From Desulfovibrio ferrophilus (GTDB lineage: Bacteria; Desulfobacterota; Desulfovibrionia; Desulfovibrionales; Desulfovibrionaceae): a DNA stretch of 64,000 nt. Numbering within the stretch: position 1 is the first letter of the stretch; every line of letters begins with the position of its first letter. The stretch spans positions 2,004,905 through 2,068,904 of the forward strand of contig NZ_AP017378.1 of assembly GCF_003966735.1 (NCBI RefSeq), written 5' to 3'. Below the pieces are notes generated by a model that made no database searches, had not been told where the DNA came from, and saw only the letters and a program-made list of their open reading frames with translations. Shown piece after piece: positions 25,917 through 26,103 of this stretch. The position numbers and the translations under genes are program-made.

Positions 25917-25950
25917 AAAAAAAAGGCCACCGGTATCTCCGGAGGCCCTT
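25917..25950 (-). terminator. Attenuator terminator inside the aldolase leader
   Basis: On the minus strand, AAGGGCC-T-CCGG pairs with CCGG-T-GGCCTTT and runs into T8. It ends 42 bases before the aldolase start codon, so it can only stop transcripts that would otherwise enter that gene. Confidence 0.85.
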
Positions 25951-26050
25951 GCTGGCGTGGATCACTCAGGCGCGCTCAGCGCGCCATGCAATCAACCCCA
26001 CGGGCCTTGATTCCCGTGGTAAAATAATAAAAACCAAAAAAGTTGATTGC
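25949..26050 (-). promoter_or_regulatory. Competing RNA stems of a transcription attenuator
   Basis: Stem 1:2 pairs GCAATCAAC (26042-26050) with GTTGATTGC (25988-25996) and encloses a second hairpin CCACGGG/CCCGTGG. The alternative stem 2:3 pairs TTGCATGGCG (25982-25991, one bulged A) with CGCCAGCAA (25949-25957), which overlaps the base of the terminator. The two are mutually exclusive. Strand 1 lies directly before the Phe/Tyr codons, so a ribosome stalled there would cover it and favour the antiterminator. Confidence 0.75.
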
Positions 26051-26065
26051 GTTGTGATCGATCAT
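25976..26065 (-). CDS. Phe/Tyr-rich leader peptide controlling the aldolase
   Basis: A 29-residue frame from ATG at 26065 to TGA at 25976, starting MIDHNAIN, with the core FFGFYYF and ending CMAR. Six of seven consecutive codons specify Phe or Tyr, which is unlike ordinary coding sequence but exactly the form of known attenuation leaders such as pheL. It ends 98 nucleotides before the aldolase start, with competing stems and a terminator between. A four-codon frame (MSNL) overlaps its start as ATGA and could couple translation. No strong Shine-Dalgarno sequence is present. Confidence 0.78.
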   Translation of the reverse strand: MIDHNAINFFGFYYFTTGIKARGVDCMAR

Positions 26066-26073
26066 AGATTGGA

Positions 26074-26103
26074 CATATATGCCCCCGCCCCTTCTCCTGT
26101 CAA
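26074..26103 (-). promoter_or_regulatory. Likely promoter of the aldolase leader
   Basis: A perfect TTGACA -35 lies at 26098-26103 and, 18 bases on, a TATATG -10 at 26074-26079. The predicted start (about 26067) would nearly coincide with the leader-peptide ATG, so leaderless translation or a second upstream promoter is possible. Confidence 0.6.

Follow-up and report, generated by a model that had tools for sequence, protein, structure and literature searches.

The stand-alone ADTH synthase gene and its upstream region

The window analysed here is a stretch of 64,000 nucleotides of Desulfovibrio ferrophilus DNA, and all positions without a contig label refer to it. At 25874-25074 on its minus strand lies a gene for 2-amino-3,7-dideoxy-D-threo-hept-6-ulosonate (ADTH) synthase, whose product matches Pfam DeoC and scores 386 bits against the NCBIfam equivalog TIGR01949, well above the cut-off of 299.45 that identifies this aldolase as ADTH synthase. 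The gene has its own Shine-Dalgarno sequence (AAGGAGG, 25885-25879, minus strand), and as its large neighbouring ORFs on both sides are encoded on the other strand, it seems to be a stand-alone unit; the upstream neighbour is divergent and extends from 26275 onward on the plus strand. Profile searches found neither a class I nor a class II DAHP synthase in the genome, the sole PF00793 match being KdsA, and they also found no AroB, which leaves the ADTH route as the one entry into the aromatic pathway found in this genome. The statement in an earlier note on this DNA that aromatic synthesis lacks the usual DAHP synthase is thus correct for this genome. The genome also encodes a third, only 38% identical ADTH synthase relative (L003, C1:2961224-2961970).

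Upstream of the gene, again on the minus strand, a perfect -35 box (TTGACA, 26103-26098) is located 38 nt 5' of the ATG of a short reading frame and is followed, after an 18-nt spacer, by TATATG (26079-26074) as the best candidate for a -10 box. The promoter had been described as strong, which is correct for the -35 box but not for the -10 box with its 4 of 6 matches, and a simple promoter and terminator scan with stricter fixed rules called neither this promoter nor the main terminator at the locus. From the promoter position, transcription is predicted to start at about 26063-26069, at or adjoining the leader ATG. The reading frame itself (MIDHNAINFFGFYYFTTGIKARGVDCMAR plus stop, 26065-25976) is the reported minus-strand frame of 29 sense codons, would probably be translated from a leaderless mRNA, and contains the putative sensor codons FFGFYYF (26041-26021), in which six of seven codons specify Phe or Tyr and none Trp.

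Such a concentration of aromatic codons is not expected by chance. When the upstream 300 nt were shuffled 2000 times with dinucleotides preserved, no short ORF reached six aromatics in seven codons, and among the upstream regions of the 44 long ORFs in the window a single one attains six, which we take to be this leader, while all others have at most four. In shuffled upstream regions of ADTH synthase genes from relatives (n = 124) this density was almost never obtained, compared with 98 of the 124 real ones. Together with the conservation described below, the leader thus has the richness in end-product codons that characterizes leader-peptide attenuators. The leader RNA also folds more stably than its shuffled versions (z = -4.8; none of 200 as good).

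An intrinsic terminator lies between this leader and the structural gene. It consists of the arms AAGGGCCTCCGG and CCGGTGGCCTTT separated by AGATA (25950-25922, minus strand), the 5' arm being region 3 and the 3' arm region 4 in attenuator terminology, and of a T8 tract (25924-25917), from which 42 bases lead to the aldolase ATG. Further upstream, folding indicates that region 1a (GCAATCAAC, 26050-26042) pairs with 25988-25996 unless a ribosome covers it, and that region 1b (CCACGGG, 26019-26013) pairs with the CCCGTGG of region 2. Region 2 (AGGCCCGTGGGGTTGATTGC, 26007-25988) is the antiterminator strand and can alternatively pair with the terminator 5' arm. The alternative stems and the T8 terminator are therefore present as claimed, and the earlier observation of attenuator parts at this locus is confirmed. 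A small perfect hairpin of 7 bp, GGCGCGC-TGA-GCGCGCC (25985-25969, minus strand), has the leader stop codon TGA as its loop and is nearly identical in the sister genome L084.

Conservation in the Desulfovibrionales

ADTH synthase genes were sampled from 80 named contigs and, at genus, family and order level, from whole genomes, yielding 174 distinct copies with more than 60% identity, and a leader was counted if at least four of seven codons specified Phe, Tyr or Trp; the relatives share ancestry, and the counts among them are hence not independent. By this definition, 151 of the 174 copies are preceded by an aromatic leader, and 141 of these 151 leaders have a terminator, mostly 20-38 nt 3' of the leader stop. 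In the sister genome the leader reads MIDYNAINFFGFYYFTVADKAPGVGCMVR with an unchanged core (INFFGFYYF); slightly more distant orthologues have Tyr cores such as YAYYYYY and YSYYY. The earlier note had predicted that an alignment of these upstream regions across the order would reveal a conserved aromatic leader and compensating stem changes, and both are observed.

No recognisable leader was found at 13 of the 52 distinct stand-alone copies included in a tree of the enzymes (L058, L071, L073, L074, L188, L190, L193, L198-L203), and these copies may be controlled otherwise. Where two ADTH synthase genes stand in tandem in one operon (L057, L065, L105, L112, L138, L139, L140), the leader is found at the first copy only. 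Two aromatic-rich, leader-like ORFs occur in tandem in an outgroup genome (L267, at about 1464 and 1643).

A probably leaderless leader mRNA

An exact TTGACA lies near 113 of 124 non-redundant leaders, and in 94 of these 113 it starts 36, 37 or 38 nt 5' of the in-frame ATG. Given the usual promoter spacing, this distance implies that transcription begins at the leader ATG or immediately beside it. Shine-Dalgarno-like 4-mers are found at only 12 of the 124 leaders but at 115 of the 124 genes. The leader mRNA is thus probably leaderless, with a start site deduced from promoter geometry; a precedent is the trpL of Sinorhizobium meliloti, in which the 5' end of the leader RNA coincides with the leader-peptide ATG (PMC7298713).

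The main competing view is that of an ordinary attenuator with a normal 5' UTR, in which transcription starts further upstream and the leader is translated from a ribosome binding site or by coupling to the four-codon frame MSNL. The MSNL frame exists, with its ATG at 26076, and overlaps the leader ATG as ATGA, and a GGAGAAGG stretch precedes the leader ATG by about 30 nt. We nevertheless regard this version as improbable, as it fits neither the TTGACA spacing in most relatives nor the rarity of Shine-Dalgarno-like motifs at the leaders. MSNL coupling as a conserved feature was rejected: the ATG of the frame lies inside the -10 box, and the sister genome L084 has not kept MSNL, its nearby upstream ATG being read in the same frame as the leader (MKSMIDYNAINFFGFYYF). 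The frame is therefore probably a coincidence. Of the two translation modes considered in the earlier note, leaderless initiation is thus favoured by promoter spacing and the lack of a Shine-Dalgarno sequence, and coupling is disfavoured.

Pairing and covariation

Pairing was analysed in 62 aligned leaders from relatives, the leader of the window included. The antiterminator helix is paired in 89.4% of the cells of this alignment, compared with 35-43% when one strand is slid by 1-3 columns, and 30 cells are changed on both sides; for the terminator, 93.5% of the cells are paired and 47 show such compensatory changes. In 55 of 61 leaders, alignment column 130 of the terminator 5' arm forms a pair with region 2 (UA 25, CG 18, UG 10, AU 2), but in 40 of 62 it is left unpaired within the terminator, for which selection on the antiterminator is a simple explanation. 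Region 2 also fits its cognate terminator arm better than the arms of other species (40 arms, mean -2.24 kcal/mol, 0 of 10,000 permutations), and the distance from the first base of the final sensor codon to the start of region 2 is nearly constant, with a median of 9 nt.

These data also bear on the suggestion that the leader encodes a functional small protein, comparable to peTrpL acting in trans, with attenuation being secondary. The S. meliloti peptide provides a precedent (PMC7298713), and the peptide end RACGLG is kept in many relatives. This stretch coincides with region 2, though, and changes together with the terminator arm, so that RNA pairing explains its conservation, and the peptide otherwise varies; we therefore consider a primary role of the peptide very unlikely.

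For the sequence in the window, stalling of the ribosome at codons 9-15 gives a probability of 0.63-0.91 that the terminator 5' arm is paired upstream while the 3' arm is still to be transcribed, whereas in the complete, ribosome-free RNA the terminator forms at 0.90. At equilibrium, the terminator is favoured in the full-length RNA in every state, the stalled ribosome included (-45 to -54 versus -37 to -40 kcal/mol), from which we infer that the switch must be kinetic and decided during transcription. Antiterminator and terminator are accordingly mutually exclusive in a kinetic rather than an equilibrium sense. For this sequence taken by itself, the energy of the antiterminator stage is only moderately unusual, 15 of 500 shuffles being equally low. 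Across relatives, a simple fold separated ribosome-free from stalled leaders poorly (mean 0.74 against 0.78), because the minimal-energy model misses the co-transcriptional order of events.

Sensor codons of the ADTH synthase isozymes

The second ADTH synthase of the genome (L124, C1:3258854-3276000, gene start 3001), which the earlier note does not mention, heads a supraoperon of 12 genes, which were named by reading their translations: ADTH synthase, DHQ synthase II, pheA, aroA, tyrA and trpE, G, D, C, F, B and A. Its leader (MLNETLTTAQHTSTNNSGNYSWLYFWFWFFMPACGQGVSR) has Phe, Tyr and Trp codons and its own terminator. This difference from the stand-alone leader recurs in the relatives, where 99 of 100 operon-head leaders contain Trp. 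After removal of near-copies, Trp is present in the core of 70 of 71 operon leaders and absent from that of 35 of 38 stand-alone leaders, the three exceptions being Desulfobacterales-type copies. Within genomes that have both types, the operon core contains Trp and the stand-alone core does not in 34 of 37 pairs, and in the other three Trp is located just beyond the nine-codon window that was scored (cores YFTNFYFGYWY, YFSYFYFGYWY and YFSNFYFGYWF). For one pair (G036) the operon leader is doubtful, as its terminator was not found (L127).

In the tree, stand-alone copies appear in several separate places, with 8 changes of context. In Humidesulfovibrio and its relatives they are sister to the operon copies of their own lineage; gene and leader were evidently duplicated together, as judged from a comparison of MNLSRANNTSFSFSQYWYYWFSRACGLGEVC with MNLSVAKNSFSFFEDGFFGFSRACGRGEVC. 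The loss of Trp in stand-alone copies corresponds to only 2 supported phylogenetically independent pairs (5 in all), which is below the number needed for a formal test. Taken at the level of codons, the sensor seems to match the gene controlled, with Phe, Tyr and Trp at the supraoperon and only Phe and/or Tyr at stand-alone isozymes, and the ADTH synthase isozymes thus appear to be specialised by their attenuator codons.

Other genes behind the same module

A covariance model was built from 62 relatives with the window leader among them, so that its own score is not independent. In this genome the model has exactly two full matches (73.6 and 61.5 bits; the next at 28.5), and these two are the leaders of the stand-alone ADTH synthase and the 12-gene supraoperon. 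Matches were obtained in 52 of 59 relatives. Strict matches in a thin sample of the phylum were limited to 13 of 118 genomes, which indicates that this form of attenuator is centred on the Desulfovibrionales; some of the distant matches likewise have aromatic leaders at ADTH synthase genes.

In other genomes the module also precedes genes of different function. Sodium:solute symporter genes (L243, L244, L247, L248, L251, L257; PF00474 in the one scanned) mostly have Phe-rich leaders, and genes for TRAP binding proteins (DctP) have Trp codons in theirs (L254, LWWWR; L262, NWWRFW). There is furthermore a trpE gene (L253), before which a WWWH frame was recognised by eye, and a prephenate dehydratase gene standing alone (L258) with the leader FFGYFYF. 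Sensor content agrees with gene function in all cases in which the function is known. By the same reading, the symporter is a candidate importer of Phe, or of aromatic amino acids, and the TRAP systems of L254 and L262 are candidates for Trp uptake, these being predicted substrates.

This change of the conserved aromatic codons with the gene, from Trp triplets at trpE and TRAP genes to Phe runs at the symporter, is hard to reconcile with a terminator under the control of a protein or small molecule (a riboswitch, a T-box or a TRAP-like protein) for which the aromatic ORF would be incidental. Pairs of terminator and antiterminator are by themselves no proof of ribosome sensing, but no Rfam family reached its gathering score in 12 loci, and the probability that we assign to such control is slightly lower still than that of a functional peptide.

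Proposed mechanism

That we are dealing with a T-rich chance ORF 5' of an ordinary terminator of the upstream transcript, as the T-richness of Phe and Tyr codons might suggest, is barely conceivable in view of the shuffle controls, the fact that relatives keep both the leader codons and the pairing, and the divergent orientation of the upstream neighbour, whose transcript needs no terminator here.

The reading that we prefer, with a probability of about 0.92, is that of a ribosome-mediated attenuator with a leaderless leader which responds to the charging of Phe- and Tyr-tRNA and governs the stand-alone ADTH synthase; the interpretation given to the locus in the earlier note is thereby supported at the level of sequence analysis. 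The parts, their conservation, the pairing with its covariation and the promoter spacing are observations, from which we infer the exact start, the ribosome stalling and the dependence on Phe and Tyr. Transcription would start at or next to the leader ATG, and the leader would be translated as a leaderless mRNA. With plentiful Phe and Tyr, the ribosome would pass FFGFYYF and reach the stop codon; region 1 would then pair with region 2, or the ribosome would mask region 2, and the terminator would form 5' of the gene. If Phe or Tyr were short, the ribosome would stall on FFGFYYF and cover region 1, region 2 would then base-pair with the 5' arm of the terminator while the 3' arm has yet to be transcribed, and the polymerase would enter the gene.

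Comparison with known systems and implications

The closest textbook counterpart is E. coli pheL-pheA (Rfam RF01859, Phe_leader), which likewise has a Phe-rich leader peptide, the 1:2, 2:3 and 3:4 stem logic and a terminator 5' of an aromatic-pathway gene. RF01859 is the top-scoring Rfam match on the minus strand, with the whole model (1-125) spanned. Membership in this family by sequence and structure was rejected, the score of 17.5 bits (E 2.7) lying below the gathering threshold of 55. In contrast to pheL-pheA, where prephenate dehydratase is controlled, the leader described here would be a sensor of both Phe and Tyr, is probably leaderless, and is placed before the first step of the common pathway. 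The S. meliloti trpLE(G) system resembles it in having a leaderless trpL with a leader RNA that begins at the leader ATG (PMC7298713), but it responds to Trp only and belongs to another gene and another phylum.

For Desulfovibrio vulgaris, an attenuator before the aroA'-aroB'-aroQ.pheA-aroF-tyrA-trp supraoperon was predicted from Merino's database by Song et al. 2005 (PMC1173090, Table 7), which very probably is the operon-head version of this element. The table entry (PMC1173090) does not describe a leader peptide, its amino acid specificity, a mechanism or the stand-alone isozyme. Within the open full-text literature on Desulfovibrio attenuation and ADTH synthase, subscription journals being outside this scope, we found no description of this leader, of the stand-alone isozyme with its attenuator or of the codon matching. 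Leader-peptide attenuation is a known class; new as far as checked are the stand-alone element, the family-wide leaderless architecture, and the encoding of isozyme and transporter specificity by leader codons.

In E. coli, the entry step is catalysed by the DAHP synthase isozymes AroF, AroG and AroH, each of which answers to particular aromatic amino acids by allosteric inhibition and by repression through TyrR and TrpR. The specificity of the ADTH synthase isozymes, by comparison, appears to lie in the leader codons. We consider it likely that those Desulfovibrionales that lack DAHP synthase duplicated ADTH synthase and its leaderless attenuator as a unit on several occasions, and that the isozymes were re-specified by edits of leader codons, to all three amino acids at the supraoperon and to Phe, Tyr or Phe plus Tyr at stand-alone copies. 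The module would also have been installed at trpE, at pheA and at candidate transporters of Phe and Trp, so that a regulon written in codons would replace allosteric isozyme control and repressors of the TyrR/TrpR type.

For the ADTH entry route in this group, we found no control described beyond the one predicted supraoperon attenuator, and a testable one is now offered. Isozymes of one step are apparently distinguished by the codons of a leader peptide and not by enzyme inhibition, and reading these codons predicts substrates of uncharacterised transporters, Phe for the symporter and Trp for the TRAP system. The leaders of the Desulfovibrionales may represent a natural series of attenuators whose specificity was altered after duplication.
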